From Cryomorpha ignava (GTDB lineage Bacteria > Bacteroidota > Bacteroidia > Flavobacteriales_D > Cryomorphaceae), in NCBI RefSeq assembly GCF_010686655.1, contig NZ_JAAGVY010000035.1, positions 1-52,319 on the forward strand: a DNA stretch of 52,319 nucleotides. Reading direction: 5' to 3'. The notes under the pieces are model-generated. The model was given only the letters and a program-made list of their open reading frames with translations. It was not told the DNA's origin and did not search any database. The position numbers and the translations under genes are program-made. Positions 8,566 through 38,874 of the stretch are shown in pieces (the first letter of the stretch is position 1; each line of letters starts with the position of its first letter).

Positions 8566-8616
8566 TCTTTTTATAATATAGTCCATGCCTTGACCAAATT
8601 TAGCTAAATTTAGTCA
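8566..8616 (-). pseudogene. Remnant 5' end and operator of an ATPase-B-type gene
   Basis: On the minus strand an ATG at 8586-8584 reads M-D-Y-I-I-K-R before the similarity stops. ATPase B at 26534-27688 begins M-D-Y-I-V-K-R. The DNA just upstream of both start codons is nearly identical and contains the same 26-bp palindrome (here 8591-8616: arms TGACCAAATTTAG and CTAAATTTAGTCA). Only about seven codons and the operator survive. The fragment points away from ATPase A, whose start is 250 bases to the right. Confidence 0.8.
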
Positions 8617-8768
8617 GTTCACAGACTGGTTTGTTTTAAATGGGGATATGTTAATGTTGAGCTCAATGATTGTTGACTTCAGTGGCCGTAAGATGCAGGT
8701 TTGGCACCAGAATTTCGTAGAGATCTTATTGCATCGAAAACCAACGAAGCTCGGTGAAAATGTCAAAA

Positions 8769-8794
8769 TGAACGAATTAACGTCATTTGGTTCA
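8769..8794. promoter_or_regulatory. Upstream imperfect palindrome of ATPase A (operator candidate)
   Basis: Arms TGAACGAA and TTTGGTTCA flank a centre containing ACGT. It is related to, but less symmetric than, the palindrome 5 bases further on. The same pair of sites is present in the dead copy at 26309-26369. Confidence 0.5.
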
Positions 8795-8799
8795 ATCGT

Positions 8800-8827
8800 T
8801 TGAACGAATTTACGTAAATTTGTTCAA
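8800..8827. promoter_or_regulatory. Palindromic operator overlapping the -7 box of ATPase A
   Basis: A 28-bp near-perfect inverted repeat: left arm TTGAACGAATTTAC, right arm GTAAATTTGTTCAA, centre ACGT. The right arm contains TAAATTTG (8815-8822), a match to the Bacteroidota -7 element TAnnTTTG. The ATG follows 9 bases after the palindrome, so a protein bound here would block transcription. The ATPase B operator has the same shape (TAAATTTG followed by a TCAA end). Confidence 0.65.
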
Positions 8828-8836
8828 AACGTGGAA

Positions 8837-9982
8837 ATGAAGCCTTATCCCAGAATAGTCAAAACACAAATTGAAAAATATTTGAGACCAAATAAAGTTG
8901 TCGTTCTGCTCGGCCCCAGAAGAGTAGGAAAGACTTTTCTTATTCAACAGATACTTAGTGAAACCAATGAGCCTTATGTATTGCTTAACGGTGAAGATCT
9001 TGCTACAAGAGAATTATTTTCACGACGAAGTAAAATTGCCTTAGAAAAAATAGTAAGTGGAAAGAACTTTCTGATTATTGATGAAGCTCAAAAAATACCT
9101 GATATTGGTAATGCTTTAAAGTTAATGGTTGATGAAATCAACGGATTAAAAATTCTGGTTACAGGGTCGTCGGCATTTGATGTTGAAAATTACACGGGCG
9201 AGCCGCTTACTGGACGAAAAATGACGTTTAAGCTTTACAGTATTTCAGAGCAAGAACTATCAAAAGTGAACCCTTTGATTAACAAGGTTGATCAATTACA
9301 TTCAAGCTTAATTTTTGGAAATTACCCGGAACTATTACAAATGAAAACAGATGAGGAAAAGCATCTGTATTTGCGCGAACTATTACATTCTTACTTGTTA
9401 AAAGATATTCTCACTTTTGAGACGATACAGAATTCTGACAAAATTATCGATCTGCTTAGATTAATTGCTTTTCAAGTTGGTAGTGAAGTTAGTATTCCTG
9501 AATTGTCAAAAACGCTACAAATTAGCAGAAATACGGTCGATAAGTACTTAGACCTGCTAACAAAGGTATTTGTAATCACCAAAGTAGGCGGGTTTAGCCG
9601 AAATTTGAGAAAAGAAGTGACCAAAAGCAATATGTATTATTTTCTTGATAATGGAATTCGAAATATTCTAATAGGTAATTTGAATCCCATTCAGTTGCGA
9701 AACGACATGGGAATATTGTGGGAAAATTATATGGTTAGCGAGCGCGTTAAATTTCAGAGCTACAGCAATATGTTGGTTTACAATTACTTTTGGCGCACAT
9801 ACGATCAACAAGAAATAGACTGGATTGAAGATAGAGGAGGGGAACTTCATGCCTACGAATTTAAATGGAGTGTAAGAAAGAAGGCCAGAGTCCCCGCAGG
9901 ATGGAAGAGCGCATACCCCGATGCCAGTTTTAACGTTGTTAATCCTGATACTTATTCTGAGTGGTTGAATTTAGATGGTTAG
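8837..9982 (+). CDS. AAA family ATPase with DUF4143 (copy A)
   Basis: About 381 residues from ATG 8837; a GTG at 8831 is in frame. Walker A is LLGPRRVGKT (about residues 24-33), Walker B FLIIDEAQK (about 78-86), with a sensor-like VTGSSAFD. The N-terminal part is AAA_14. Then come a helix-turn-helix-like region (SIPELSKTLQISRNTVDKYL) and the DUF4143 C-terminus with QQEIDWIEDRG ... AYEFKW, the D/E-x-K pattern of a degenerate PD-(D/E)xK nuclease-like fold. The family's job is unsettled; members are common, mobile and often multi-copy. It is a clear paralogue of ATPase B at 26534-27688. The upstream palindromes suggest autoregulation. Confidence 0.88.
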   Translation: MKPYPRIVKTQIEKYLRPNKVVVLLGPRRVGKTFLIQQILSETNEPYVLLNGEDLATRELFSRRSKIALEKIVSGKNFLIIDEAQKIPDIGNALKLMVDEINGLKILVTGSSAFDVENYTGEPLTGRKMTFKLYSISEQELSKVNPLINKVDQLHSSLIFGNYPELLQMKTDEEKHLYLRELLHSYLLKDILTFETIQNSDKIIDLLRLIAFQVGSEVSIPELSKTLQISRNTVDKYLDLLTKVFVITKVGGFSRNLRKEVTKSNMYYFLDNGIRNILIGNLNPIQLRNDMGILWENYMVSERVKFQSYSNMLVYNYFWRTYDQQEIDWIEDRGGELHAYEFKWSVRKKARVPAGWKSAYPDASFNVVNPDTYSEWLNLDG

Positions 9983-10074
9983 AATAAATGAAGCCTGTAC
10001 CGTCACCTTTTTAAATGGTGTTTGTTACCAAATACATATATAGAGAAGAGCGATCATCAAACCCGGGGAAATGC

Positions 10075-10116
10075 CAGAATGGAGAAGCTCCAATTAAAAT
10101 TGAACCATTAAAATAG
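10075..10116 (+). pseudogene. C-terminal tail of a DUF4160 protein
   Basis: A plus-strand frame reads Q-N-G-E-A-P-I-K-I-E-P-L-K then TAG at 10114-10116, seven bases before the DUF2442 ATG. DUF4160 proteins end in just this way (W-x-x-x-x-x-G-x-x-P-x-K-I-x-P-L) and are normally encoded directly upstream of DUF2442. The rest of the DUF4160 gene is missing. A similar tail (KWLKCQKGEVPSKVEPI) stands at 47581-47634. Confidence 0.65.
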
Positions 10117-10122
10117 GAAAGC

Positions 10123-10383
10123 ATGAAACCAATATGGATTACCGAAGCAGTTTACAAAGATGAGTTTAGAGTCTTCTTAAAATTCAATGATGGAAAAAGT
10201 GGTATAGTCGATTTAATAGATAAGCTTGAAGGCCATATTTTCGAGCCCTTAAAAGACAAAACCTTTTTTAAAAACTTTAAGCTTAACACTTGGACACTTG
10301 AATGGCCAAATGGCGCAGATTTGGCACCTGAATTTCTTTATGATTTGATTAGCGAAAATGAGAAAGTATTCTCACAGAAATAA
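10123..10383 (+). CDS. DUF2442 domain protein (only intact copy of five)
   Basis: This 86-residue protein matches DUF2442 throughout: an N-terminal strand (IWITEAVYKDEFRVFLKFND), a central V-D-L...F-x-x-L-K-D-K-T-F-F, and the diagnostic W-P-N-G-A-D-L-A-P-E-F-L-Y near residues 62-74. DUF2442 and DUF4160 form a two-gene unit often described as toxin-antitoxin-like, without firm biochemical proof. The DUF4160 partner is reduced to its tail here. Four decayed copies of this gene lie at 26103, 27755, 43809 and 47637. Downstream is a convergent copA 3' fragment. Confidence 0.88.
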   Translation: MKPIWITEAVYKDEFRVFLKFNDGKSGIVDLIDKLEGHIFEPLKDKTFFKNFKLNTWTLEWPNGADLAPEFLYDLISENEKVFSQK

Positions 10384-10476
10384 CCTTATCTTCCGATTTA
10401 AGGCTCGTTCCGCTCGCCCAATTAACAAGAATCGTAGATGGTGACCGTCAGCATCACTACCAAACTCCAAGAAATC

Positions 10477-10640
10477 TCACCCAAAATTCATCCCCTTTAA
10501 CCTTAAAACATTCGCAATTACCGAAACATAGCTAAAACTCATAGCCACAGCAGCAATCATTGGCGAAAGCCAAATTCCCAGAAATTGAAACGAAATTCCA
10601 GCAGCAATCGAATCCTGCAACACAATGTAAATCAACGTAT
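10477..10640 (-). pseudogene. copA 3'-end remnant, diverged copy
   Basis: The minus strand encodes about 52 residues (...AAGISFQFLGIWLSPMIAA, VAMSFSYVSVIANVLRLKG, then MNFG and a stop). They align to the C-terminus of CopA at 47818-50358 ([38 protein letters not shown]). The similarity stops near 10640. It is more diverged than the second fragment at 44229-44435 and lies, like it, just downstream of and convergent to a DUF2442 gene. Confidence 0.85.
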
Positions 10641-10951
10641 CAATAAGTTTAAATCAATATTTTTAATCATCATATTACTCAAATCCCTACTTTCGCTATT
10701 CCGGAAAGGTCGCCGGGTCTAAGTTTGCCCAAATCAATTTTGTGAAGCGTTATAAATTCCGCAAAACAAGGGCTGTAGCCAATACAACCCCAGCCCTTTC
10801 TTTAACGAACTAATTTGCCAAAAGAGCCAAACCAACCCACCTAAACGTATTACCAATTATACTTCTGGCCATTGCCAAATAAAGCTTAGCGAACAACTCG
10901 TTCCGACGGTTTGGAATGACTCCAATAGTTTTTACATCTTCACCTATTCTC
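10641..10951. other. Intergenic stretch with one hairpin
   Basis: There is no supportable gene. A hairpin with perfect 8-bp arms (AAGGGCTG 10768-10775, CAGCCCTT 10791-10798) lies downstream of the pump gene and is followed by TTTCTTT on the plus strand. It may stop transcripts from either side. The remaining sequence gives only short interrupted frames. Confidence 0.5.
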
Positions 10952-13900
10952 TCAAATCAAATTGACTTCTTTTGTAGGCCGTCTTTTATTGACTACCAAC
11001 AGATACACACAAGGAATAACAACTAAATTTAAAATCGTAGCTGTAAGCAAACCACCCAAAATAACCACAGCCATAGGACTTTGTATTTCACTTCCCGGTT
11101 CGCCGCCTTTCAAGGCTAATGGTATCAATGCCAAACCTGTTGTAAAGGCTGTCATTAAAATTGGGTTTAAACGGTCTATAGCTCCTGTTTTTATCAATTC
11201 GAAGCCTTGCATCCCTTCCTTTCTCAAATCTTCATAGCGTGACACCAATAAAATACCGTTACGCGTTGCAATTCCAAAGAGACTAATAAATCCGATGGTG
11301 GCTGCAATACTGATAATTCCTGATGTGAAATAGACTATTAAAATGCCACCTATTAAAGCTAACGGTAAATTGATGAGTACCACAAATGCCAATTTTATAT
11401 CCTTAAATTCATAATACAGCAACAGAAATATAATGGCTATGGCAATAATCGCAGTTATCAAAAGCATTCGCGATGCTTTGGCTTCACTTTCAAACTGTCC
11501 GCCGTATTGAATTCGATAACCTTCAGGCATATTTACATTGTTTGCCACAACTTCTTTGATTTCTTCTACGGCACCGCGTAAATCCCTGCCTTGTACATTG
11601 GCAGCGACTACAATTTTACGTTGTACGTCTTCACGGCTAATCTTACTCGGACTGCTTACAGAAGCAACCGTTGCCAATTCCCCTAAAGTAGTTTGACCGC
11701 CATTTGGCAAACTGATTAAGGCATTGCCAATGTTTTCGATATTATCCCGAAATGGTTTCCCGTAGCGAACCACCAAATCAAAATACTTCTGACCTTCATA
11801 AATCTCACCTGCTTCTTCGCCTGCAAAGGCAATATCTACTTGCTGCATTAAATTACCAACCGTCATACCATAAGCCGAAAGGATTTGGCGTTTTGGCTGG
11901 ATGCGTATTTGCGGCACTTCAATTTGCTGGTCAACCGCAACATCTGCCAACCCATCAATATCTTTGATGTTCTGCTCCACGCTTTTACCTACTTCAAACA
12001 AGCGTTGCAAATCTGAACCGAATATTTTGATGGCAATATTGGCTCGCGTACCCGAAAGCATGTGGTCTATGCGGTGCGCAATGGGTTGCCCCAACGTAAT
12101 ATTAACACCCGGCGCAACGCTCAATTTGTTCCTGACTTCTTCAAAAAATTCTTCTTTGGTTTTGTCTTTGAGAACAAAAGGCACATCAATTTCCGAAGCA
12201 TTTACGCCTTGCGCATGTTCGTCTAATTCGGCACGACCTTGTCTGCGGGTTACGACTTCCACTTCGGGTAAATCCAGCAATATTGTCTCTATCAATATTC
12301 CTGTTTTGTTGCTCTCTTCCAAAGACATTGCCGGTGGGCCAACCACACTAATTACCAGTGAGCCTTCATTAAATTCGGGTAGAAAACTTCTTCCCAATTG
12401 AGTCATTACGAAAAGACTGATCACAAAGGCAATTACCGTAACGCCGATAATGGTCTTTGGTATTTTTGTAGCCCGTTCCAATAAGTTGCCATAATGTTTT
12501 TGCAACCATCGTTCTACACGCGTGCCGTCTGCTTGCTTTTTCAATAGCTTTTCGCTATTTAATAAATATGAACATAAAATAGGGGTTACTGTTACCGCAA
12601 CAACCAATGATGTTAAAACGGATGTTACAAACGCAATTCCCAATGGTTGCAGCAATCGTCCTTCCATTCCGCTTAAAAAGAATAAAGGAATAAATGATAC
12701 AATAATAATTAGTGTTGCAATGATGATGGAACTTCGTATTTCTACCGAAGCATCACGAACAACCGTTATGGTAGATTGGCGTTCTGCCTTTGGTTTCCGA
12801 ATGTTTTCGCGTAAGCGTTTATACACATTTTCCACATCGATAATCGCATCATCTACCAATGCCCCAATTGCTATTGCCATCCCACCTAAACTCATTGTAT
12901 TGATGGTATAACCCATCCATTTTAAAATAATGATTGACACCAATAATGAAATAGGAATTGCCAATAAAGAAATGAGCGTTGTTCGCCAATTCATCAAAAA
13001 GATGAAAAGGATAATCATTACAAAAAAGGCACCTTCCAATAAAGTTTGATTCAAATTGCTGATGGAAGCATCAATAAAATCGGACTGTCTAAAGATTTGA
13101 CTTTTGATATCGACACCTTTCGGCAAGGTTTTTTCCAAATCGGCAATCGCTTCATCAAGTCGGTCTGTCAATTCAAGAGTATTGACATCGGGCTGTTTCG
13201 AAATGGTTAAAATTACAGCCGGTTTTGCATTCAATGATCCATCGCCTATTTTATCCGCAGCACCAATCTGAACAGTTGCCACATCTTTTATTTTGATGGT
13301 TTGACCATTGACTTGTTTCAAAACCGCTTCTTGCAAATCTTCCAACGCATAAGCTCTACCGCTTCCTTTAATGATGTATTGATTACCATATTGATTGATA
13401 ATTCCGCCGGGCGCATTCGTATTCGATTCTTTAACCTTTTCTACCAATTCAGATAGGCCTACACCGTAATGCTTCATCTTTTCAGGATTGGCAAATACTT
13501 GGTATTGCTTGTAATCGCCACCGATGACCACTACGTTCGCAATGCCACCAATCGCTTTTAAACGTGGTCTGATTGTCCAATCCGATAAGGTTCTCAACTC
13601 CATTGGCGACAAACTATCTGAAGTCACTCCCAACAACATTATTTCGCCCATAATGGATGAGATAGGTGCCATTGTTGGTGCGCCAATACCTTCCGGCAAA
13701 TTCTCTCTTACCATTGGGATTCGCTCGCTCACAATTTGACGCGCCCGATATATATCGGTTCCCCATTCAAATTCTATCCATACTATGGATATTCCAGCTG
13801 CCGACGAAGAGCGAATCCTTCTCACATTTGGCGAACCATTTAAGGCCGTTTCCAATTGATAGGTTACTAATTTTTCGACTTCTTCAGATTCCATTCCGTG

Positions 13901-14059
13901 TGCTTCGGTAAGAATGGTTACCGTGGGTGCAGTAAGGTCTGGGAATACATCGACGTTCATTGTGCGGGCGTAATAAATACCCAACACGCTCAACGCAACC
14001 GCTCCCAACAGGATGAGCAATCTATTGTGAAGTGAAACTGATAATATTTTGTTTAACAT
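10952..14059 (-). CDS. Heavy-metal efflux RND pump (CzcA/CusA type)
   Basis: This 1035-residue inner-membrane proton antiporter has the normal length for HME-RND pumps. It shows the N-terminal transmembrane helix (LLILLGAVALSVLGIYYA), the porter-domain start (MNVDVFPDLTAPTVTI), and the TM4 signature GALVDDAIIDVEN at about residues 397-410, which carries the proton-relay acidic residues. The second half repeats the TM block (KLAFVVLINLPLALIGG; GIATRNGILLVSRY). It would take metal ions from periplasm or cytoplasm and pass them through the adaptor at 14590-16092 to the TolC protein at 16434-17618. The substrate cannot be read safely; Cu/Ag or Zn/Co/Cd are possible. The S23 gene separates it from its adaptor. 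Confidence 0.93.
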   Translation of the reverse strand: MLNKILSVSLHNRLLILLGAVALSVLGIYYARTMNVDVFPDLTAPTVTILTEAHGMESEEVEKLVTYQLETALNGSPNVRRIRSSSAAGISIVWIEFEWGTDIYRARQIVSERIPMVRENLPEGIGAPTMAPISSIMGEIMLLGVTSDSLSPMELRTLSDWTIRPRLKAIGGIANVVVIGGDYKQYQVFANPEKMKHYGVGLSELVEKVKESNTNAPGGIINQYGNQYIIKGSGRAYALEDLQEAVLKQVNGQTIKIKDVATVQIGAADKIGDGSLNAKPAVILTISKQPDVNTLELTDRLDEAIADLEKTLPKGVDIKSQIFRQSDFIDASISNLNQTLLEGAFFVMIILFIFLMNWRTTLISLLAIPISLLVSIIILKWMGYTINTMSLGGMAIAIGALVDDAIIDVENVYKRLRENIRKPKAERQSTITVVRDASVEIRSSIIIATLIIIVSFIPLFFLSGMEGRLLQPLGIAFVTSVLTSLVVAVTVTPILCSYLLNSEKLLKKQADGTRVERWLQKHYGNLLERATKIPKTIIGVTVIAFVISLFVMTQLGRSFLPEFNEGSLVISVVGPPAMSLEESNKTGILIETILLDLPEVEVVTRRQGRAELDEHAQGVNASEIDVPFVLKDKTKEEFFEEVRNKLSVAPGVNITLGQPIAHRIDHMLSGTRANIAIKIFGSDLQRLFEVGKSVEQNIKDIDGLADVAVDQQIEVPQIRIQPKRQILSAYGMTVGNLMQQVDIAFAGEEAGEIYEGQKYFDLVVRYGKPFRDNIENIGNALISLPNGGQTTLGELATVASVSSPSKISREDVQRKIVVAANVQGRDLRGAVEEIKEVVANNVNMPEGYRIQYGGQFESEAKASRMLLITAIIAIAIIFLLLYYEFKDIKLAFVVLINLPLALIGGILIVYFTSGIISIAATIGFISLFGIATRNGILLVSRYEDLRKEGMQGFELIKTGAIDRLNPILMTAFTTGLALIPLALKGGEPGSEIQSPMAVVILGGLLTATILNLVVIPCVYLLVVNKRRPTKEVNLI

Positions 14060-14061
14060 GT

Positions 14062-14122
14062 AAGAAATTTTGAATGTTGAATTTTAAATGTTGAATGCTC
14101 AATGTTGAATTTCGAATGGCGA
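14062..14122. repeat. TGTTGAAT-rich direct repeats, left flank of the S23 gene
   Basis: Four or more spaced copies of TGTTGAAT(TTT) variants (TTTTGAATGTTGAATTTTA, ATGTTGAATGCTCAATGTTG). Similar repeats, partly inverted, lie on the other side of the S23 gene at 14498-14589. Together they bracket the four-helix-bundle gene. Confidence 0.7.
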
Positions 14123-14123
14123 A

Positions 14124-14471
14124 TTAGTTGTTTTGAGAAGTTTTGACAATTGCGGTAAGTATATTGATGAGTTGTTCTACATCGTTCAAGTGAGATTTTA
14201 CATTCACATTTACGAGATTACTTCTATCAATCAACTTTAGCCAGTACCTTGTTTCTCTTGCTTCTTTTGATGAAATAGACATTTTGGCTGTAAAATCTTT
14301 TTTGGAAATGGCTGCCGTAGCTTCTTCCACATTCGCACCTATACTTGTTCCACTTCTTAAAACTTGTTTGGAAAGGACATACTCATTCTGGGCTTTCATT
14401 TCTTTATAAAGTTCAATTATTTGCAGAGCAAAATCGAATGACTTGGTTAAAATGATGTTCTCTTTATTCAT
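14124..14471 (-). CDS. Four-helix-bundle protein (S23 / 23S rRNA intervening-sequence type)
   Basis: This 115-residue protein matches the S23 family: helix 1 SFDFALQIIELYKEM, the conserved S-x-Q-x-x-R-S-G-T-S-I-G-A-N-V-E-E-A core (about residues 35-52), KDFTAKMSISSKEARETRYWLKL split over helix 3, and a C-terminal helix. The family was named from insertions in 23S rRNA, but in Bacteroidota it is very often a free-standing gene in intergenic repeats, as here. The gene sits inside the RND operon between adaptor and pump, flanked by TGTTGAAT repeats, which looks like an insertion. Its function is unknown. Confidence 0.9.
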   Translation of the reverse strand: MNKENIILTKSFDFALQIIELYKEMKAQNEYVLSKQVLRSGTSIGANVEEATAAISKKDFTAKMSISSKEARETRYWLKLIDRSNLVNVNVKSHLNDVEQLINILTAIVKTSQNN

Positions 14472-14497
14472 GATTATTTTTTTTATTAATGGTTAAT

Positions 14498-14589
14498 TTT
14501 TAGTTTTTAATGTTGAATGTTGAATTTTTAATGCGTACACAATTCAAAATTTATAATTCACAATTCAACATTTCCAATTCAACATTCCA
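14498..14589. repeat. Repeats on the right flank of the S23 gene, with inverted copies
   Basis: TTAATGTTGAATGTTGAAT is followed 30-60 bases later by inverted copies (ACAATTCAACATTTCC, AATTCAACATTCC). The block ends exactly at the stop codon of the RND adaptor gene. With 14062-14122 it forms an inverted-repeat frame around the S23 gene. Confidence 0.7.
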
Positions 14590-16092: not shown

Positions 16093-16179
16093 GTGTCTGT
16101 TCTTATTTTGGTTTGGTCACATGGAACCTTTTATGATTAAATAATCATAACGGTTTCATCTTCTATATCTATTTGATTA

Positions 16180-16416
16180 TTAGTGATCGTGGTGATCAGA
16201 ACCATCGTCGTGTTTGTGAGTTTCAGTTTGTGTTTCCGTGGTATCTTTCTCTACCTGAAATTCTTCTTGCTCTACGGTTTCACGTTGCATATGACCACCG
16301 TCCGCATCATGCTCGTGACCCTGTTCTTCAGTCGATTCCGGATTTGTGTTTCCACATGATGTCATTGCGAAGATTGAAACTGTTGCTAATGCGAATATTA
16401 TTTTTGAGATTTTCAT
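16180..16416 (-). CDS. Small His-rich lipoprotein
   Basis: This 78-residue protein has a lipoprotein signal (lipobox MTSC, Cys about residue 21) and a mature part of acidic and His residues (GHEHDADGGHMQRE ... HKHDDGSDHHDH). It lies in the RND operon between the TolC and adaptor genes, 17 bases after the first and about 90 before the second. The His clusters suggest a periplasmic metal chaperone or buffer that feeds the adaptor, whose own N-terminus has a similar DAHAHNDDGSH stretch. The role is inferred; I do not recognise a named family. Confidence 0.8.
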   Translation of the reverse strand: MKISKIIFALATVSIFAMTSCGNTNPESTEEQGHEHDADGGHMQRETVEQEEFQVEKDTTETQTETHKHDDGSDHHDH

Positions 16417-16433
16417 AATCGTAAGTTTTAATA

Positions 16434-17618: not shown

Positions 17619-17651
17619 TGTTTGAAATTTTAGGTTGAATCTGAAAGTCTA

Positions 17652-17678
17652 AACCTGATTTCGACTATTCTTCAGGTT
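17652..17678. promoter_or_regulatory. Inverted repeat upstream of the RND operon
   Basis: Arms AACCTGA and TCAGGTT are separated by 13 bases. It lies between the His-rich gene at 17721 and the TolC gene, so it could be an operator for the efflux operon or a weak terminator of the upstream gene. No T-run follows on either strand. Confidence 0.35.
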
Positions 17679-17720
17679 ATAAGGGAAATAGTACCGAAGC
17701 GGCACAAGTTTCCTAAACGA

Positions 17721-18194: not shown

Positions 18195-18203
18195 GTTAAC
18201 TTA

Positions 18204-18238
18204 ATCAAGTTTACAGACAGTTTTGTTTTAAACTTGAT
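18204..18238. promoter_or_regulatory. Inverted repeat between acr3 and the His-rich gene
   Basis: Arms ATCAAGTTT (18204-18212) and AAACTTGAT (18230-18238) are perfect. It lies 10 bases upstream of the His-rich gene's first ATG, in operator position, and downstream of acr3. There is no T-run, so a regulator site is likelier than a terminator. Confidence 0.4.
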
Positions 18239-18326
18239 CCCCATCAAGCAATTCTTATTCGAATTCTTATTTTGATATTTTAGAAATAAGGATTGATTGA
18301 AATAGCTCTTCGAAATGAGAATGGCT

Positions 18327-19373: not shown

Positions 19374-19375
19374 TT

Positions 19376-20008
19376 TTAAGAATTGATTTGAGAGAAGACG
19401 TAAAATAGTTCGGTAGCGATTTGCAGACTTCTTTCGCTGTATTTTTCAGCTTGTTGTGCTGTGTCGTCAAATGCTTTTGGGTCTTCAAAAGTTATAGGAA
19501 TACGTTTTTCGGCACCGGGAACCAATGGACACGCTTCATTTGCGGTATCGCAAGTCATAATTGCCACAAATTCAGATTTTGGGTTGAAATCATCATCAAT
19601 TCTCTTTGAAAATCCAATTATACCATGTTCATTCTCTGCATATTTAATACTGTAAATTGGGTTGTTGCCTTCTGAAAGCATTTTGATTTCAAAGCCAGAG
19701 TTTTGTAAAGTTGTGGCAACCATTGGAAAAAGTGATGTGCTTTCGGTGCCACCTGAATAACAACGGACATTTTTGATATTGAAATAATATGCCAATGTCT
19801 GTGCCCAAACCTGCGCTAAATGGCTTCTTCGTGAATTATGCGTGCAGATGAAATTGATACGAATTTCTTGATTATTCGAAACTTTTGATTGAATGAATTC
19901 TGTTAGCGGTTTTAAAGTTGCTTTGCGTTCATCGGTGATACGCTCAATGTTTAAAGGATTAATAACATTTTCAATTTCTGGATATAGCGTAATATTGGTT
20001 GTTATCAT
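19376..20008 (-). CDS. arsC: Arsenate reductase, LMW phosphatase-like
   Basis: This 210-residue enzyme has the phosphatase loop C-T-H-N-S-R-R-S (Cys-55) and the two redox cysteines in [10 protein letters not shown] (about Cys-153 and Cys-160), the thioredoxin-coupled ArsC arrangement. It reduces arsenate to arsenite for export by the adjacent ACR3 transporter. The N-terminal about 45 residues before the core are typical of the longer Bacteroidota form. A 15-codon remnant of the start of a paralogue survives at 38417-38461. Confidence 0.92.
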
Positions 20009-20074
20009 ATTGGTTAATTATTAATTGCAATATTACGATGGATGAAAGAATCAAAAAAATAATTCTAAACTTTT

Positions 20075-20281
20075 TTAACAACAACTTTTGTTTTCTTGAA
20101 TTGGTGGACAAGGTACAGTTCCATAAGAGCAATAAACACAACAATCACCATCGTTTGGTTTTAGGACTATTTTACAATTCTCACATTCGTAAAAGAATTG
20201 ACACGCATTTGTTGGCATGTCTTCTACTTTTTTATGCCCGCAGTTTGGACAAGTAATTTCTGATTTTAATTCGATTTTCAT
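20075..20281 (-). CDS. GDCCVxC domain-containing protein
   Basis: This 68-residue Cys-rich protein has ten Cys: C-P-N-C-G-H near the N-terminus, C-E-N-C mid-way, the name-giving G-D-C-C-V-Y-C, then C-P-P-I and a C-terminal CC. The pattern suggests zinc-ribbon-like or mercury/soft-metal binding. Homologues are annotated as (seleno)proteins near mercury genes; here the positions are Cys. Its ATG overlaps the merTP stop by 4 bases, so the two are translationally coupled, and arsC follows. A second, about 85% identical copy (58 of 68 residues) is at 38515-38721. Confidence 0.9.
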   Translation of the reverse strand: MKIELKSEITCPNCGHKKVEDMPTNACQFFYECENCKIVLKPNDGDCCVYCSYGTVPCPPIQENKSCC

Positions 20282-20901
20282 TCGATTTCTTTTTCGCTTG
20301 TTACTTTATAACCCGTTGAGTTAATTGCTTTCTCAATCTCCATTTTATTGGTTTTGGTTCTATCAAATTCAATGATTGCGTTTTCCTTTTCGTATGACGC
20401 TCTTGAGTCTACAATTCCATTGAGTTTATTTACTTCGTGATTGACGAGTTCTTCGCAACTCGCACATGTCATTCCGCTAATTTTAAATTCTGTATTAGAT
20501 ATGTCCGATTTATCAACTATTATTAAATGCTTTTCAGTTTTCAGGTAAAAGATTCGCGAATAGTAAGGGAAAGCCAACATTACAATTGCAAATGCGGTTA
20601 CAATTCCCAAAAAGGTTTTTGATTGTATGAATTTTGGTTTTCCAGCCTTGCCGGCAGGGAGGTCGTCAGTATCACATTCACAATCGATTTCCTTTTGATG
20701 TTTTAGTTTTTGATACCAAGCAAAACCAAGGACTAAAATTGTCAATCCAATTAGATAAGGTCGAAAAGGTTCTATCCAGGAAAATGTCGATGCAATCCCA
20801 GTTGTTCCTGCAATTAGAGCCAAGACAGGTGTGATACAACATAAAGAAGCTGTAATCGCAGTTAGGAAACCTGCACCAATTAATTTGTTTCCACTTTTCA
20901 T
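20278..20901 (-). CDS. merTP: Mercuric transport fusion protein MerTP
   Basis: This 207-residue protein has MerT-like helices at the N-terminus with the vicinal Cys pair (SLCCITPVLA, Cys 21-22), a second pair C-E-C at about 74-76, a further helix (IVTAFAIVMLAFPYY), and a periplasmic MerP-like HMA domain with GMTCASC at about 143-149. It would bring Hg(II) through the inner membrane. No MerA reductase or MerR is in the window. The loop after helix 2 contains L-P-A-G-K-A-G (81-87), encoded by a palindrome around TGCCGGCA that looks like a small in-frame insertion. Confidence 0.92.
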   Translation of the reverse strand: MKSGNKLIGAGFLTAITASLCCITPVLALIAGTTGIASTFSWIEPFRPYLIGLTILVLGFAWYQKLKHQKEIDCECDTDDLPAGKAGKPKFIQSKTFLGIVTAFAIVMLAFPYYSRIFYLKTEKHLIIVDKSDISNTEFKISGMTCASCEELVNHEVNKLNGIVDSRASYEKENAIIEFDRTKTNKMEIEKAINSTGYKVTSEKEIE

Positions 20902-21065
20902 ATTGTTTCTAAAATTTTGTTCTTGTCGAGTATCTCAAAAAACGGATGCAGTAATGCTGAATATTCGGTAGTCAATGAGTAAAAAGTCGTTTGGGCCGTT
21001 AGCTGATAGTATAACGGACTAAACTATCCATTCTCGAAATCCATTTTACGCATTAATGCAAACGA

Positions 21066-21143
21066 TTACCTTTTTTGGGTAATCAAAAAAGCTGATGTTA
21101 AAAGAACGGAACCTGAGATTGCAATAATTTTAAATATATTCAT
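21066..21143 (-). CDS. Candidate 25-residue membrane peptide, copy 1
   Basis: A 25-codon frame begins 10 bases after the stop of the M43 protease and ends TAA. The peptide starts M-N-I-F-K-I-I, has a hydrophobic centre (AISGSVLLTSAFLI) and ends T-Q-K-R. The duplicated locus at 38787-38864 keeps the same start, length and stop with nine or so substitutions and no indel, although the neighbouring protease and arsC copies there are destroyed. I do not recognise it. A chance open frame in a recent duplicate remains possible. Confidence 0.45.
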   Translation of the reverse strand: MNIFKIIAISGSVLLTSAFLITQKR

Positions 21144-21153
21144 CCTGCGTCTT

Positions 21154-23214
21154 TCAATTATTCAGAATTACAAGTTTCATTGTTTTAGGCGTTGTTGCTG
21201 CTTGAATTTTTATAAAATAAATTCCTTGTTCAAATCCTTTAGTTGAGATGGTGATTTCGTGGTTTCCTTGGGTCATGTTCTGGTCATTTAATGAACGCAT
21301 TAATTGCCCTTGTAGATTATAGACTCCGATGGTTACCTTACTTTGGCGCGCAAGCGAATATTCCAGAGTAGCCCTGTTGGTGGCAGGGTTTGGATAAAGT
21401 TTAAGATTAGATATATCATTTGGCACTTCATTTATATGGGTAGCGAAATTAGTGCCCCCGACCACATTTATATTGTCGATATACAGGTTGTTGCCCCCAT
21501 CAGTAACATTTACAATTTTAAGCTGTACGTATGGTTCATCACGGTAGCTATTGAGCGAGATATGCGCATTTTTCCATTGTGAAGAGTCGGGAACAAATGG
21601 TGTTGTTTGGACTGGCCCCGTTGTTAAGCCATTTTGAGTTCTGTAAAATATCTGACTGTAGTTAACACCACAATCTACAGATAGCAAAACCAGCATTTCA
21701 TCCGAAAAAGTTGGATCGGATTTGGCATAAGCCCATTTATAATTCATGTACACGTTTGAATCAGGATGCGCGGTAGTCAAATCCAAATATGGCAATACAA
21801 GTTCATCTGTAGAACCGTAATTTGTATTTATGAGATTGTTGATTTTGATGGAATAATTTCCTGAAACCGATGCCATCGAATCCAACTCCCAGGTTATGCC
21901 ACCATCCAGATTATTAATAGTCAGGTAGGACGGGGGATATATACCGCTGTCAAAATTTTCTTCAAATCCAAGAGCGTCGCCTGTTCCTGGCAGACTTACC
22001 GAAATGTAGCCCGTTGTCTCAAGGCTATCGCTACTGATTCCATCAGAAACGACCAGTTTTACTGCAAAAGTGCCAACAGAATTATATGTCACGGTTGGAT
22101 TTTGATCTGTTGAGCTTTCTGGTTCGCCACCTGTGAACGTCCACTGCCAGTTCGTTGGGTCATTGAGAGACTTATCCATAAAATACACATTATTTCCATT
22201 GCATATATCTGTGTTGAGCGTAACGAAATCGGCTGCTACAGCACAAATGTCGGGGGCAACATAATTACTATCACAGCCGGTTGCTTCAAGGTTTGTGGCG
22301 AGCCAGATCTCGGTGCGGATGGTGTCGAGTGTAGCATGCATTCTTTCAGACTGACCATCAGTAAACATACTCTGACACGCATCCGGTGTGTAATTCATAT
22401 AGTTTTCTTTCAGGTCATTTAAATCGGGTATGTCGTTAGAGCAGGTGTTTTGGGTAATACAAGTGTAACTCGGCCCTGCCTGTGGTGGCGTATCACACAC
22501 GTAGTCACCATCTGTGCAAAGATCAGTGCCACAACCATTATTAAATGTGTGATAAAGTCCAAACCAATGCCCAACTTCATGGCTTGTTGTGCGGCCAAGA
22601 CCTGCAGATGCTGTTCCCATATCTCCGAATAAGTTGTGTCTCACAACTATTCCATCTTCGTCTGCCGGGCCACCTGGAAATGAAGAATAACCACCAACAT
22701 TGCCGTTGATGCTTTTTACAATGTAAATATTTAAATAACGGGTATTATCCCAAAAGCTAAGTGCTTTGAGCAAGAGGCGCTGATAAGCTTGATGGTTAGT
22801 AAGCGGAGATTTTACCCTTACTATTCCATTTGTGCAGTGGCCATCAGGATCTATTTTTGCCAGGCAGAAACGTACTTTTGTATCTACACCGCTACCATCA
22901 CCATTGGTGCCGGCAAATTTTCCGAAGTCTTCATTAAGGACTTGAATCTGACTTTGCACTTGAGCTTCAGATATATTTTCCGAACTGCCATTATGGATAA
23001 TATGAACAACTACAGGAATTGTTCGAATACTATCTGATGAAGATCTCTCATTTCCCAAGATTAATCGCTGATTTATTTTCGCCTGAATTTGTCGTTCAGA
23101 TTCCAATAAAGATTTTTTATTTGTTACCTGGTCAAAAAAGCAAGGCTGACTATCTTGAGAGAACAGCGACAAGCTGCTTGACATTAAAATGAGTAAAAAT
23201 ATATTTGCTTTCAT
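21154..23214 (-). CDS. M43 (pappalysin/cytophagalysin-type) metalloprotease with T9SS domain
   Basis: About 686 residues from ATG 23214, which opens a good signal peptide (MKANIFLLILMSSSLSLFSQ); an ATG 24 bases earlier is less likely, and the dead paralogue at 39055 also starts at this position. The zinc motif T-S-H-E-V-G-H-W-F-G-L-Y-H lies near residue 215, followed by the M43 Met-turn region (ENYMNYTPDACQSMF). Then come a PKD domain (NWQWTFTGGEPESS ... VVSDGISSDS), a beta-sandwich with ELVLPYLDLT typical of choice-of-anchor/MAM-like domains, and a type A T9SS domain (LYPNPATNRATLEY ... KLVILNN). It is an exported protease. Confidence 0.9.
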   Translation of the reverse strand: MKANIFLLILMSSSLSLFSQDSQPCFFDQVTNKKSLLESERQIQAKINQRLILGNERSSSDSIRTIPVVVHIIHNGSSENISEAQVQSQIQVLNEDFGKFAGTNGDGSGVDTKVRFCLAKIDPDGHCTNGIVRVKSPLTNHQAYQRLLLKALSFWDNTRYLNIYIVKSINGNVGGYSSFPGGPADEDGIVVRHNLFGDMGTASAGLGRTTSHEVGHWFGLYHTFNNGCGTDLCTDGDYVCDTPPQAGPSYTCITQNTCSNDIPDLNDLKENYMNYTPDACQSMFTDGQSERMHATLDTIRTEIWLATNLEATGCDSNYVAPDICAVAADFVTLNTDICNGNNVYFMDKSLNDPTNWQWTFTGGEPESSTDQNPTVTYNSVGTFAVKLVVSDGISSDSLETTGYISVSLPGTGDALGFEENFDSGIYPPSYLTINNLDGGITWELDSMASVSGNYSIKINNLINTNYGSTDELVLPYLDLTTAHPDSNVYMNYKWAYAKSDPTFSDEMLVLLSVDCGVNYSQIFYRTQNGLTTGPVQTTPFVPDSSQWKNAHISLNSYRDEPYVQLKIVNVTDGGNNLYIDNINVVGGTNFATHINEVPNDISNLKLYPNPATNRATLEYSLARQSKVTIGVYNLQGQLMRSLNDQNMTQGNHEITISTKGFEQGIYFIKIQAATTPKTMKLVILNN

Positions 23215-23238
23215 TATCTCGTAATTGTTTGATTTCAT

Positions 23239-23712
23239 TTACTTAAATCTTCTTGCAATGTAAGGATAGATCAGGAATAAATCCAAATTCTCCTTAATGC
23301 GTTATGGTGTCTATCTATTTGAATGAGTAGAGCTTATACCTTTTAGGCCAATTGCCAATATTAAAATTGTGAAAGGGGTTTACACCAACATGTTTAGATT
23401 TCTTGAATCGAAAAAATGGCTTTAAAAACATTAACCACACTTGCTAAGCAATACGATTTGCGAGTGGTAAGACAATGGTTTTTCGCTTTTTAAATGCGAA
23501 TATAACGGATGTGAGTTAAAAGCATGTTATGAGATTTTGGGTTTATGTTGTGAAATTGTGGGGTGGGACACGAATCGCGGATATTTTTTTTGGTATCCTA
23601 TATTGTTTTCCATTTGATTGCAAATGAATCATCTCACAGGGTAAGGCACCTACTTCCATCACAGATGGCTACAAGTATATTACGAAATCTGCATTGTCTT
23701 AATTCACCGGAT
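23239..23712. other. Intergenic stretch holding the second copy of the 27-bp repeat
   Basis: There is no supportable gene. The repeat (core 23541-23567) matches 2894-2920. One 25-codon frame at about 23416 (MALKTLTTLAKQY...) has no other support. The rest is AT-rich without an obvious promoter. Confidence 0.5.
23524..23567. repeat. Dispersed repeat, copy 2 (27-bp identical core)
   Basis: The core at 23541-23567 is identical to 2894-2920, with similar sequence for about 20 bases on the left (ATGTTATGAGATTTTGG here). The right flanks differ apart from a later T-run. Confidence 0.75.
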
Positions 23713-24348
23713 TTATTCTTTTTTTCCGATTTCGAGAAATATGGATTTAATGGCATTAAATTTCACGAAAACATCTATACCCTGAAGTATATCCATATTT
23801 GCCCACAGACCACCAATGCTATATTTCCGAGCGCAATTTTCACTCAAAATCTCAATTGTATAAACGACTGGATGGCTTGTACTAAGACCGCGTAAATCAA
23901 TGATAGGACTAAGAGATTCGTAAGTGGGTTCTTCGAGAGTCAGGATATCGTTTTCAAGAAGTTGCGCTACCTTTCGTTTGAGTTTCCTTTTACTTAAACA
24001 ATTGATTTCATTGTCCAGAAAGAATGTTTCCATGCTTTTATGATTAGCATGATTTATGAACCCGCTATACAGAAAAGAGTTCCAATAATTTTTATTTTTA
24101 GGCTTGCGCAAAACGATCACTTCGTTGAGCAATCCGGTATGACCAGCCGCATAAGTCCAAAACCTTATCTCCAACTCTGTGTCGGTATAGTCGATTACAT
24201 TTAGACTGTCATAAATTGCAACCCAATCTGGGTCAACCCATTGGCGACCGTAAAATGTAAATGTTGAATCGCATTGAAAGTCCAAATTCTGGGCATTCAG
24301 TTGTGCAACTGAAATGATTGAAATCAAAACGAACCAATATTTAAACAT
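23713..24348 (-). CDS. Exported protein of unknown function
   Basis: This 211-residue protein has a signal peptide (FKYWFVLISIISVAQLNAQ) and no T9SS sorting domain. The mature part is mixed alpha/beta, with a Trp/Tyr-rich N-terminal region (FTFYGRQWVDPDWVAIYDSL) and a basic stretch (LSKRKLKRKVAQLLEND). No known motif is visible. It runs in the same direction as its neighbours but is about 200 bases from the next gene on its upstream side, so it is probably a single gene. Confidence 0.65.
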   Translation of the reverse strand: MFKYWFVLISIISVAQLNAQNLDFQCDSTFTFYGRQWVDPDWVAIYDSLNVIDYTDTELEIRFWTYAAGHTGLLNEVIVLRKPKNKNYWNSFLYSGFINHANHKSMETFFLDNEINCLSKRKLKRKVAQLLENDILTLEEPTYESLSPIIDLRGLSTSHPVVYTIEILSENCARKYSIGGLWANMDILQGIDVFVKFNAIKSIFLEIGKKE

Positions 24349-24547
24349 TCATCAATGTAAGATATTTTGTGTTGAAATGCATTTATCCCGAACTTTTAAG
24401 ATGCGAACTGCGATCTTTTAATATTTCAGAAAACTAGTTTGTACTGTTGAAAATTATTCCCTAAGCGTTCTGATAATGACAAGAGAATTGCCGTGCTATA
24501 TTCCAAGCCAGCAAAAGACCTATTGATCTTTCAGATTCTGGAATATT

Positions 24548-25843
24548 TCAAAACACCACAACTTTTTTAACCACAGCACCCTTATCTGTACTTATCCATA
24601 CAAAGTACAAGGATGGATCAAAAGATGAAAGATCAAGCGTAGTAGTTCCAGCGGGATACGATTTTATAACCCTTCCCGAATTGTCCAGAACCGTTATTTC
24701 CATTATAATGGAATTGCCAGCATTGGATAGCTGCACGATTGAATTTGCGGGATTGGGATAAATATCAATTGAATTATTCAATTCAATTTCTTTAACACCA
24801 ACGGTTATTGGTTCATTACTCCGCATCAATAGTCCGTTTTCGCCGGCTGCAAAAGCGGTTCCATTTGGCAGTATTGTAACTGTATTTATTGGTTTATCAG
24901 CGTTGTAATAGCTCCATTCGCTCCCATTCTGAACGAAAATAGCCCCATAAATTTCATTGCTTTGTGCTCCGGCCAGGCCAAGGCCATTCTCCAAAAATTC
25001 CATTGCCCTAAAATGTGGATAGAAAAATGTTGGGATCCAGGTAGGATCGACTTCAAAGGTAAGCCCATCATCCAGTGATTTATACATGCTATAATAAAGG
25101 TCGGAAGTGGCAGCATACCAAACGTTATTACCGGCATAGGCCACAGCTCCAACTCCTGTTGTATCCAAAAAAACGGTATCGGGCTCGTTCAATACATTTA
25201 TATTGATAAGAAGATTGCCATCTTCATGACCTAGGACGAAACGATTAGTGTTTGGATTTACATCCATGCTCGTATAGCCTTCACCGTTGCCAAAATAATC
25301 TTCTTCACTCATTCCAAAAGCAAAAGGTCCATCCAAGAAATAAGTGTAAGCTCCGCCACTACTGCAACTTTTACCAAATACAGTATGTTTGATGTAGCCA
25401 TTTCCATCGAATTGTGGAGTAATATTTAAACCTTTTGCATCACAAATTGGTGTGCCCGTTCCGAAATTTTCACTGTAGCTTTCACCATCGTCGGCAGTAA
25501 GTACCGTAAACAGGGGTTGTTTCCAGACCAATATTATTCCACTCTCAAGTTGTCCGAAGTCCGCTCCTACCTGACGATTGACCGCTACCAAGTCGCCATT
25601 TCCATCTTCGGCCTGGCCAATAGTTGGCACTTGTAAGTCCTGCCAGGTGGTTCCCCCATCCACGGTTTTTTTAAAGAGATAATCGTTACCAACCATATAT
25701 CCGGTATCCGCATCCAGAAAATGAATATCGTTAATCGTCTTGGTGGTTCCTGTATTTAAGGTTTCCCAGGTTAGGAATTGTGCGTGTGCTATGGATGCTA
25801 AGAGAAGCATTGTAACTATTAGGGTTGCGCTTTTAATTTTCAT
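24548..25843 (-). CDS. Secreted YCF48-like protein with T9SS sorting domain
   Basis: This 431-residue protein has a signal peptide (LIVTMLLLASIAHAQF) and YCF48/BNR-type repeats (IHFLDADTGYMVGNDYLFKK, TVDGGTTWQDL, YKSLDDGLTFEV, FAAGENGLLMRSNE). The C-terminal 80 residues (SIDIYPNPANSIVQL ... PSLYFVWISTDKGAVVKKVVVF in two blocks) are a type A T9SS sorting domain. It resembles the tandem pair at 5921-8543 in design. Its last about 33 codons also occur as a stray fragment at 3700-3802. Confidence 0.85.
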   Translation of the reverse strand: MKIKSATLIVTMLLLASIAHAQFLTWETLNTGTTKTINDIHFLDADTGYMVGNDYLFKKTVDGGTTWQDLQVPTIGQAEDGNGDLVAVNRQVGADFGQLESGIILVWKQPLFTVLTADDGESYSENFGTGTPICDAKGLNITPQFDGNGYIKHTVFGKSCSSGGAYTYFLDGPFAFGMSEEDYFGNGEGYTSMDVNPNTNRFVLGHEDGNLLININVLNEPDTVFLDTTGVGAVAYAGNNVWYAATSDLYYSMYKSLDDGLTFEVDPTWIPTFFYPHFRAMEFLENGLGLAGAQSNEIYGAIFVQNGSEWSYYNADKPINTVTILPNGTAFAAGENGLLMRSNEPITVGVKEIELNNSIDIYPNPANSIVQLSNAGNSIIMEITVLDNSGRVIKSYPAGTTTLDLSSFDPSLYFVWISTDKGAVVKKVVVF

Positions 25844-26102
25844 ATTGGTTGAATTATGAATAGATAGAGTAAATTTAGGGAAGTATTATTTTAATAAAAG
25901 AAACTTCTAAGTCTTAGAATTGTCCATTTTATCGCTTTCGCGAAAATCGCTAACAATTGCAAATGCTTAAACCTAACCATTTTTCAAGGCAATACAATTT
26001 TAAAAAAATCGTAATATAGGATTCTCAATTACAGACTCATAGACTTGATAGAACGAAAAGAAAAAGTGTCTGCAGGCCTATTTGGTTGCAAAATTTATAG
26101 CC

Positions 26103-26225
26103 AAATTTTCAAACCTTTAAAAGCTATCAAAAACTTCGCATTAAACATCTGGACTTTTTAATGGCTCAATAACGCAGATCTGGCACCTGAATTTGTTTAC
26201 TATCTTAGGAGTCTCCCCGAAATAA
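26103..26225 (+). pseudogene. DUF2442 remnant, copy 2
   Basis: Plus-strand DNA aligns with codons about 35-86 of the DUF2442 gene at 10123 (ATTTTC-AACC-TTAAAAG, then GGCACCTGAATTTGTTTAC), but frames shift and a TAA replaces a Trp codon (TGGACTTTTTAATGGCTC). The sequence after the stop (AATAAACTCGTC ... ACCAATCACTAAGAAC) recurs after the copies at 43809 and 47637. It lies next to the dead ATPase A start. The rest of 25844-26102 shows nothing. Confidence 0.8.
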
Positions 26226-26308
26226 ACTCGTCTTTTAAATTCAGGCTCATCAACCATCATAATAACCAATCACTAAGAACGAATCACTAAGAACCATTAA
26301 CGAATCAA

Positions 26309-26432
26309 AATGAACGAATTAACGTCAATTGGTTCAATCGATTGAACGAATTTACATTAATTCGTTCACAACGTGGAAATAAAGCCTTACCCCAGAATGC
26401 TTAATGTACAAATTGAAAAATATTTGAAAAAC
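26309..26432 (+). pseudogene. Remnant promoter, operator and 5' end of ATPase A
   Basis: About 120 bases match 8768-8890 with few changes: both palindromes (the second at 26342-26369), the GTGGAAAT start region and the first codons. The initiator ATG has become ATA (GAAATAAAGCC versus GAAATGAAGCC), and the similarity ends after about codon 16 (AAATTGAAAAATATTTGA). It is a dead 5' end of the A-type gene placed beside the intact ATPase B. Confidence 0.85.
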
Positions 26433-26533
26433 AGCTAGCGTTTTTCTGCGATAGCTCGACAAAATTTCTTTATTCAGAACATGTATTGATCCGATTGAAT
26501 GAGTCAATTCTTCAGTCGAAAGACTAAACTCCG

Positions 26534-27688
26534 CTATTTAGCCGATCCGTCCATCACCCAATCCAAATAGTTTTCGGAGTTAATTAATTCAAATTTTGAA
26601 TCTGGATAAGCGTTTTTCCATGCAATCGGTGCTTTAGCGTTGCGCTTCGGATTCCATTTGAATTCATAGCCGTGCAAGATTCCGCCGCGGTCTTCTATCC
26701 AGTCTATTTCCTGCTGATCATAAGTTCTCCAGAAAAAGTTATAAACCAACAATCTGCTGTATTTTTGATATTTAATACGTTCGCTAATGATGTAATTTTC
26801 CCAAAGTGCACCAATATCATTTCTCAACTCTATAGGGTTCATATTTCCAATCAGGATATTCCTTAGTCCATTATCGTAGAAATACCATTTTTTTCCTTTT
26901 ACTATTTCTTTTCTTAGGTTTCTGCTAAAGGCACTTACCGAATGTAAGATGTACACTTTAGAAAGCAAGTCTAAATACCTTTCGACGGTATTTTTACTCA
27001 TCGATAATTGCCGTCCTATTTCGTTGTACGAAACTTCGGATCCAATCTGAAATGCAATCAATCGAAGCAAATCAAAAATTTTATCTGAATTGCGAATGTT
27101 TTCAAATGACAATATGTCTTTTAGCAAATATGAATTTACAAGATCTTCCAGGTACTCCTGCTTTTCTTTTATATCAGGCAACTGAATAAGCTCGGGATAG
27201 CTCCCATAAATAAGCCTTTGATTCAAATTGGCCGCCTTATCTAGCGGGCTTTCAACTTGATTTAATTCTTCTTCCGAGAGTGCAAACAGCTTAAACGTTT
27301 TTTTTCTTCCAGTAAGTGGTTCGCCAGTAATTGTATTTATATCGAATGCTGATGATCCAGTAACCAGTACTTTGAGTCCTTCTATTTCATCAACCATTAA
27401 CTTCAGCACATTCCCGATTTCGGGTATTTTTTGTGCTTCATCTATAACGAGTAATTTATTACTTCCTAAAAGATTGAGATAATTTTGTGTACTTCTGTAT
27501 TCCAGTTTTTTTCTGACATCTGCATTTTCACCATTCAGCAATAAATACGGCTCGCTCATTTGCTGCAAAATCTGGTGAATAAGCACGGTCTTTCCCACCC
27601 GTCTGGGGCCAAGGAGTATTACTACCTTATTCGGGACAAGGCTTTTTAACACATCTTTTTCGATCGATCTTTTTACAATATAGTCCAT
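26534..27688 (-). CDS. AAA family ATPase with DUF4143 (copy B)
   Basis: 384 residues. Walker A LLGPRRVGKT (about 26-35), Walker B LLVIDEAQK (about 80-88), VTGSSAFD, a HTH-like segment (SYNEIGRQLSMSKNTVERYL) and the DUF4143 end with QQEIDWIEDRG ... GYEFKW. It is a clear paralogue of ATPase A at 8837-9982, and the two keep the same domain order and length. ATG 27688 is fixed by the operator palindrome ending 4 bases upstream. The promoter-operator and first codons are also found as a fragment at 8566-8616. Role unknown; possibly self-regulated through the palindrome. Confidence 0.88.
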   Translation of the reverse strand: MDYIVKRSIEKDVLKSLVPNKVVILLGPRRVGKTVLIHQILQQMSEPYLLLNGENADVRKKLEYRSTQNYLNLLGSNKLLVIDEAQKIPEIGNVLKLMVDEIEGLKVLVTGSSAFDINTITGEPLTGRKKTFKLFALSEEELNQVESPLDKAANLNQRLIYGSYPELIQLPDIKEKQEYLEDLVNSYLLKDILSFENIRNSDKIFDLLRLIAFQIGSEVSYNEIGRQLSMSKNTVERYLDLLSKVYILHSVSAFSRNLRKEIVKGKKWYFYDNGLRNILIGNMNPIELRNDIGALWENYIISERIKYQKYSRLLVYNFFWRTYDQQEIDWIEDRGGILHGYEFKWNPKRNAKAPIAWKNAYPDSKFELINSENYLDWVMDGSAK

Positions 27689-27692
27689 GTAT

Positions 27693-27718
27693 TGACCAAA
27701 TTTAGCTAAATTTAGTCA
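27693..27718. promoter_or_regulatory. Palindromic operator of ATPase B
   Basis: A 26-bp inverted repeat with arms TGACCAAATTTAG and CTAAATTTAGTCA has one mismatched pair. Read towards the gene it contains TAAATTTG, a -7 type promoter element, directly before the ATG. It shares its layout with the ATPase A operator at 8800-8827 but has GC instead of CG at the centre. Confidence 0.65.
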
Positions 27719-27754
27719 GAGTACTGACTATTTTTACAAAAAAATGGTTTTTCT

Positions 27755-27833: not shown

Positions 27834-27863
27834 GGCGGTAATTCTTTCACCACTTTTGTCGAA

Positions 27864-38864: not shown

Positions 38865-38874
38865 TCTACGTCTC

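Follow-up and report, generated by a model that had tools for sequence, protein, structure and literature searches.

The 52,319-nucleotide contig NZ_JAAGVY010000035.1 of Cryomorpha ignava (the window, which is the whole contig, from a genome of 5.0 Mb) encodes two paralogous ATPases, A and B, which are 61% identical in protein sequence and are both members of the PDC-S01 (AAA_14+DUF4143) family. Each gene is preceded by its own type of 26-bp palindromic operator, and beside each intact gene lies the stub of a gene of the other type (Table 1). We consider it likely that each protein reads the operator over its own promoter through its own winged helix, probably repressing its own gene as a dimer, and that the stubs stem from local duplication. 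More generally, the sequences indicate that PDC-S01 proteins are most likely self-addressed autoregulators, joined in one chain with a STAND ATPase and a nuclease-like domain.

Table 1. Genes, operators, stubs and neighbouring remnants in the window
Feature	Position	Strand	Remarks
B stub	8566-8617	-	complete B operator (8591-8616, 26/26) and 7 codons (20/21); adjoins ATPase A
DUF2442 C-terminal remnant	8641-8739	+	between B stub and A
A operator, distal unit	8769-8794	+	palindrome upstream of ATPase A
A operator, proximal unit	8801-8826	+	32 bp from distal unit; TAnnTTTG box 22 bp before ATG
ATPase A	8837-9982	+	381 residues; AAA_14+DUF4143; recognition helix starts SRNTVD (residues 230-235)
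DUF2442 gene, intact	10123-10383	+	downstream of A
P-type ATPase fragment	10459-10714	-	matches 3' end of heavy-metal P-type ATPase gene (47818-50358)
DUF2442 remnant	26090-26221	+	upstream of A stub
A stub	26305-26430	+	two A operators (26311-26336, 26343-26368) and ~50 coding bases; ATG changed to ATA; adjoins ATPase B
ATPase B	26534-27688	-	384 residues; AAA_14+DUF4143, architecture as ATPase A; recognition helix starts SKNTVE
B operator	27693-27718	-	TAnnTTTG box 16 bp before ATG
DUF2442 C-terminal remnant	27734-27840	+	adjoins B operator

The two operator types are distinguished by their arms, TGAACG for A and TGACTA for B. A search of the whole genome with up to three mismatches gave just two sites for the B operator, 8591-8616 and 27693-27718, and three for a symmetrised A operator, 8801-8826, 26311-26336 and 26343-26368; the reversed-operator control gave no sites. 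In both genes a TAnnTTTG box, which we take to be the Bacteroidota -7 element, lies inside the operator, so that autorepression is favoured.

The stubs matter because they show an operator to be recognisable, and assignable to its type, even after its gene has been lost. The original prediction had placed the operator and first seven codons of a B-type gene beside intact A, and this is borne out: 8566-8617 is 94% identical to 27668-27719 over 52 bp (E 1.5e-15), and the stub translates as MDYIIKRPSDEL followed by a stop. The A-type operators and gene start proposed to lie beside intact B were also found, 26305-26427 being 88.6% identical to 8763-8885 over 123 bp, and the ATG has become ATA at 26379 as described, but an in-frame GTG at 26373, common to the intact A gene, survives; the frame meets a stop about 20 codons on. 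Both matches are far above chance. An extension of the A stub past ~26430 was rejected, since its alignment score was 22 and 269 of 500 shuffles were equally good.

A further claim, that the promoter-operator is better kept than the coding part in all four places, was not upheld. Counted along the alignments inside and outside the operators, identical bases number 48/52 against 41/49 in the A stub (Fisher p 0.23), 26/26 against 20/21 in the B stub (p 0.45) and 74/78 against 61/70 when pooled (p 0.15), and the difference is not significant. It might be supposed that the orphan operators serve as decoys, retained because they titrate the intact protein; in favour of this, the operator in the B stub matches the live one at 26/26 bases and those in the A stub at 25/26 and 23/26. 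However, the neighbouring coding bases are not significantly less well kept, orphan operators are almost absent in relatives, and we hold such a role to be highly improbable.

The assignment of A and B to PDC-S01 rests on near full-length matches to PADLOC profile PDLC04789 (A, E 4.7e-151, residues 4-377 of 381; B, E 3.7e-158, residues 5-378 of 384). The architecture of A combines a STAND-type AAA ATPase, a winged helix and a PD-(D/E)XK-like DUF4143 domain. The ATPase motif residues G26, R28, G31, K32, D82, E83 and R127 are conserved in all 81 aligned members, as are E302 and D328 of the DUF4143 domain, whilst E341 is kept in 78 (two have D and one K) and K343 in 80; these last four residues we read as a putative PD-(D/E)XK-type active site, the motif assignment being our own. 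In the AlphaFold2 model of A (pLDDT 90.6, pTM 0.90) the predicted recognition helix comprises residues 231-243. When the structures on Foldseek's list were compared with this model a second time, the best rows were the archaeal AAA+/STAND ATPases PABY2304 (2qen; Z 17.0, root-mean-square deviation 3.4, 259 residues aligned) and SSO1545 (2fna; Z 16.6, 3.3, 261 aligned), then NLR and CED-4 chains at Z 14-15, with other AAA rows near 12. Judged from the model, the ATPase and winged-helix part of A has the STAND/archaeal ATPase fold; the matches to SSO1545 and PABY2304 span mostly residues 1-312, barely covering the nuclease-like C-terminus. In a sequence search of solved structures all matches were to generic AAA proteins and covered the Walker A part, a PHROGs search gave a weak clamp-loader match, and the viral structure library gave mostly generic AAA proteins.

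At the level of sequence, many PDC-S01 genes carry a private palindrome, and hence a candidate operator, just upstream, often in tandem at 32 bp. Under a strict definition (a 26-bp palindrome with an AATT...AATT core within 140 bp of the start), such palindromes were present in 59 of 80 relatives, with 84 sites against four in the other 731,354 bp of the same loci and 14/4000 in Markov controls; because the search demands the core, the core is partly there by construction, while the outer arms are free. In an inverted-repeat test which assumes no core, 48/77 ATPase upstreams beat all 40 of their shuffles, compared with 20/240 upstreams of other genes. Of 54 pairs of neighbouring units, 43 are spaced by exactly 32 bp, as are 21 of 25 from the held-out loci described below. 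Arrays of 5 to 6 units within 300 bp, mostly in 32-bp steps, occur at three loci (L070, L080 and L058).

A degenerate operator pattern, demanding exact TGA..AATT..AATT..TCA, was also run against 18 genomes (~97 Mb), all picked for holding a member. It gave 21 sites and none for the reversed control: 16 before intact ATPases, three in the window's stubs, one at a probable stub in genome G019 (L163) and one apparent chance match (G000:C7:99349), which lies inside a 548-residue open frame that by eye is TonB-receptor-like. The L163 site consists of an operator and start codon without the gene and was judged a stub by eye; tblastn gave no clear coding match (best E 0.012). An operator regulon was considered, and the 18 genomes give no sign of one, the sites lying at ATPase starts or stubs except for G000:C7:99349. 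Locus L108 has, 1194 bp beyond the start of its ATPase gene and just 3' of that gene, an operator whose arm is of the gene's own type, the sole such orphan among the strict sites of the 80 loci. Among eight plasmid-borne members, hand-picked from 40 matches listed of 518 plasmid records, four passed the palindrome test, including genes from Acidobacteriota, Thermus and Agrobacterium. On pTT27 of T. thermophilus HB27 (L264), two palindromes lie upstream of a DUF4143-type ATPase gene. Phages were considered as carriers of such genes; a scan of viral contigs yielded one fragmentary relative (L260).

The link between operator and protein comes from covariation, within the sequences, of the palindrome arms with recognition-helix residues of the same protein. 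Arms were read by a script blind to the proteins; only for L079, whose consensus was distorted by spurious far sites, was the arm (TCTCCG) entered by hand. The operators of A were taken without the far B-stub site, G0_L004 was omitted from the code table, L122 (weak site) was omitted from the covariation and tree tests and kept in the code table, and four of the 80 relatives do not appear in the protein alignment. With overall relatedness removed, the columns most tied to the arm, of the protein columns tested, are 232, 230, 231 and 235 (r 0.61-0.41; 95% permutation maximum 0.35), where the recognition helix of the predicted structure begins. Residue 232 pairs with arm base 3, residue 231 with base 4 and residue 230 with base 2, and after thinning to <65% identity (N 28) the values for bases 3, 4 and 2 are 0.99, 0.91 and 0.84. 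The code table (Fisher 4e-12) shows Lys231 with C (51/51), Arg231 with A (11/13) and Asn232 with A (63/63), together with Ser or Ala at 230 with G (61/63) and Asp or Asn at 230 with C (7/7).

Contrasts on a tree built without the helix gave joint changes of residue and base of 5:0, 4:0 and 2:0, with 1, 0 and 1 pairs unchanged, or 11:0 when pooled (sign test p 0.001). In L051, the sister of A, both the residue (Lys231) and the arm (TGACTG) have switched. A (Arg231, TGAACG) and B (Lys231, TGACTA) themselves differ at a code position, so cross-recognition between them would not be expected.

The rules were fixed before being applied to 43 held-out loci, of which one was dropped as a copy of the training locus L051, seven had no site and 35 were scored. 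The 35 genes are 50-72% identical to the nearest training protein, and two (L257 and L258) come from genomes which also gave training genes. Bearing in mind that the effective number is smaller because the held-out genes are clustered, base 4 was correct by the code in 33/35 (Lys 22/22, Arg 11/12, Thr 0/1), against 23/35 when the base of the nearest relative was copied; where the two disagreed, the code was correct in 10 of 11 cases. Asn232 went with A in 29/29, Asp230 with C in 3/3 and Ser230 with G in 23/24.

Classical helix-turn-helix autorepressors of the LacI/TetR type have a palindromic operator over their own promoter, take their specificity from the start of the recognition helix and have a private operator for each paralogue. 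By sequence, A and B resemble them in all three respects: the palindromic operator upstream of each gene, and a specificity apparently tied to its own helix-turn-helix, are the marks of a self-operator autoregulator. What departs from the LacI/TetR type is that the reading domain sits inside a STAND ATPase which also has a nuclease-like domain, and that the sites are phased by exactly 32 bp. In the mechanism we propose, the winged helix would read the 26-bp palindrome over its own promoter, residues 230, 231 and 232 going with arm bases 2, 4 and 3. A dimer, or cooperative dimers 32 bp apart, would occupy the operator and repress the gene, and a nucleotide state of, or a signal to, the STAND ATPase may then release the repressor and arm the nuclease-like domain.

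A number of observations weigh against this mechanism or limit its reach. Although a TAnnTTTG box lies within 75 bp in 32/85 upstreams (7% in shuffled sequence), it overlaps a palindrome in 10 only; for genes other than A and B, promoter occlusion is therefore a guess. Ten of the 85 upstreams gave no site even at a loose threshold, the seven of 43 held-out loci already mentioned had none, and four of the eight plasmid members, including one Bacteroides gene of this subfamily, are without a significant palindrome. In a sample of members of all kinds from six genomes, 21/40 passed a looser palindrome level, as did 31/240 other genes, and palindromes within a genome were by eye dissimilar to each other; the sample holds 40 of 46 matches, three fragments and three from G015 having been omitted, with start codons picked mechanically and a few of them not ATG.

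The code has weaknesses of its own. When thinning goes down to <60% identity (N 15), residue 231 keeps its lead at base 4 (r 1.0), but the other two no longer stand out. Three loci (L244, L081 and the weak-site L122) violate the Arg rule. The permutation control ignores relatedness, and column 217 also just passes it. Outer-arm similarity is flat (0.64-0.66) at 45-65% protein identity and rises only above that range. The tree contrasts are each insignificant when taken singly, and the pool treats the three residues as independent. Asn230 was accompanied by C in one of six held-out genes, that one being the doubtful L257 site, so the Asn230 rule fails. What the sequences show is the stubs, the private operators, the 32-bp phasing, the residue-to-base code with its held-out test and the conservation of ATPase and nuclease-motif residues; physical binding, repression and nuclease activity, as well as the duplication history and any role in defence, are inferred.

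The stubs would be what is left of copies made by a local tandem duplication of a segment comprising DUF2442, A and inverted B, each copy having decayed differently. We infer this history largely from the DUF2442 pieces, of which the three remnants in Table 1 had gone unremarked in the original prediction. All DUF2442 of this type in the genome lies on this contig, where there is a single intact copy of the gene plus remnants in five places; that intact copy and three of the remnants adjoin A, B or their stubs. A cousin with 25% identity lies elsewhere in the genome. This confinement to one contig indicates local duplication. The end of the P-type ATPase gene has been repeated along with DUF2442 (10459-10714 and 44161-44448, with the intact gene at 47818-50358). 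The order of pieces is B stub, DUF2442 C-terminal remnant, A, DUF2442 and P-type ATPase 3' end at A, and DUF2442 remnant, A stub, B and DUF2442 C-terminal remnant at B. The neighbour pairs DUF2442-A and B-DUF2442 are thus common to both loci, so a local tandem duplication fits.

The earlier idea that an A-B pair was duplicated, with each copy losing a different partner, therefore stands in part: a local tandem fits it, with DUF2442 as a third partner, but none of the 80 relatives has an A/B pair, and no intact ancestor of the tandem was found. The relatives speak against its alternative, that A and B move as a unit, and against a conserved head-to-head pair or shared promoter, for which we searched the related genomes and which occurs in 0/80 loci (flanks of at most 5 kb, and less than that at many of them). 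Four of the 80 hold a second, distant ATPase (25-45% identical). In Phaeodactylibacter xiamenensis an A ortholog and a B relative lie ~93 kb apart on one contig, so the two lineages occur separately. A general partnership with DUF2442 was also discarded, DUF2442 having been detected near only 1/80 relatives.

The same data bear on plain birth and death of paralogues, in which the stubs are random leftovers, A and B have no special link and the DUF2442 neighbours are coincidental. The lack of an A/B pair in the relatives agrees with this, as do operators not significantly better kept than coding bases and ATPase fragments in several genomes, those at G000:C34, G008:C38 and G020:C19 matching only the 3' part of such genes. 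With no pair in the 80 relatives and fragments of this kind, stub decay may be ordinary. What speaks against coincidence is the gathering of the intact DUF2442 gene and all five remnants on this contig, four of these six beside A, B or their stubs, and we think pure birth and death rather unlikely. The fragment at G000:C34:52892-53095 (L022) lies near a contig end and matches residues 293-360 of a related ATPase with 44% identity.

It is very improbable, in our judgement, that A and B are minimal mobile elements with the operator repeats as element ends, the proteins inserting copies and the stubs representing incomplete insertions. The family does have a nuclease-type domain, and an operator with a 5' end but without its gene is seen in the window and, probably, at one place in G019 (L163). 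However, the 200 bp that follow A hold no palindrome, the one that follows B is part of the A stub, and no terminal repeats fitting element ends were found among the 200-bp downstream palindromes and the window repeats. Orphan sites in the ~97 Mb amount to four in three places plus the apparent chance match, L108 has the one orphan of a gene's own arm type in the 80 loci, and fragments of only the 3' part also occur.

PDC-S01 is listed in PADLOC as a phage-defence candidate. A survey reports 9986 archaeal and 29494 bacterial systems in which the ATPase is fused to a PD-(D/E)XK-type domain, and ranks PDC-S01, still a candidate, as the fourth most common defence across all prokaryotes (PMC12988326); its main text contains none of the terms operator, promoter, palindrom, autoregulat, wHTH and winged. 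No mechanism for PDC-S01 was found in the open-licence literature searched. For a candidate defence family this common (a reported ~39,000 copies; PMC12988326), the residue-to-base code would supply a predicted DNA target for many members, making the question of binding directly testable, and the operators and helices may offer a natural set of orthogonal DNA-binding switches. A bolder and, to our minds, doubtful extension would make of PDC-S01 a large set of switches, each with its own address and orthogonal to the rest. Each protein would rest, by way of its recognition helix, on an operator array of its own, and occupancy of the array would be the sensor: disturbance by phage or foreign DNA would cause the STAND ATPase to oligomerise and the nuclease to act, paralogues within a genome being kept separate by single helix changes matched by single arm-base changes.

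In Thermus thermophilus HB27, RNA of TT_P0211 (AAA 14, DUF4143) rose 6.6-fold when plasmid DNA was present in the strain with Argonaute (PMC4406477), which hints at induction or regulation of such genes. The gene has the same Pfam architecture as A and B; the value comes from one expression table, with no operator analysed, and we do not equate TT_P0211 with L264.

The DUF2442 gene and remnants flanking A and B invite comparison with DhiA/DUF2442 antitoxin-like proteins. The NCBIfam DhiA match is weak, at 26.1 bits against a curated cut-off of 200 bits, DUF2442 was detected near 1/80 relatives, and the identification of the window's DUF2442 as a DhiA antitoxin is not supported.

Elsewhere in the window, 38418-39081 is a collage of three pieces of 19965-23240 (84, 86 and 74% identical) and thus another internally deleted local duplicate. 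Matches to the RhuM family (PF13310) at 4061-4396 and 4407-4685 lie in adjacent frames, apparently a split gene. A repeat of ~151 bp resembling a miniature inverted-repeat transposable element occurs at 27862-28012 and 50371-50527, with at least 50 matches in the genome, many of them near full length and some in tandem.

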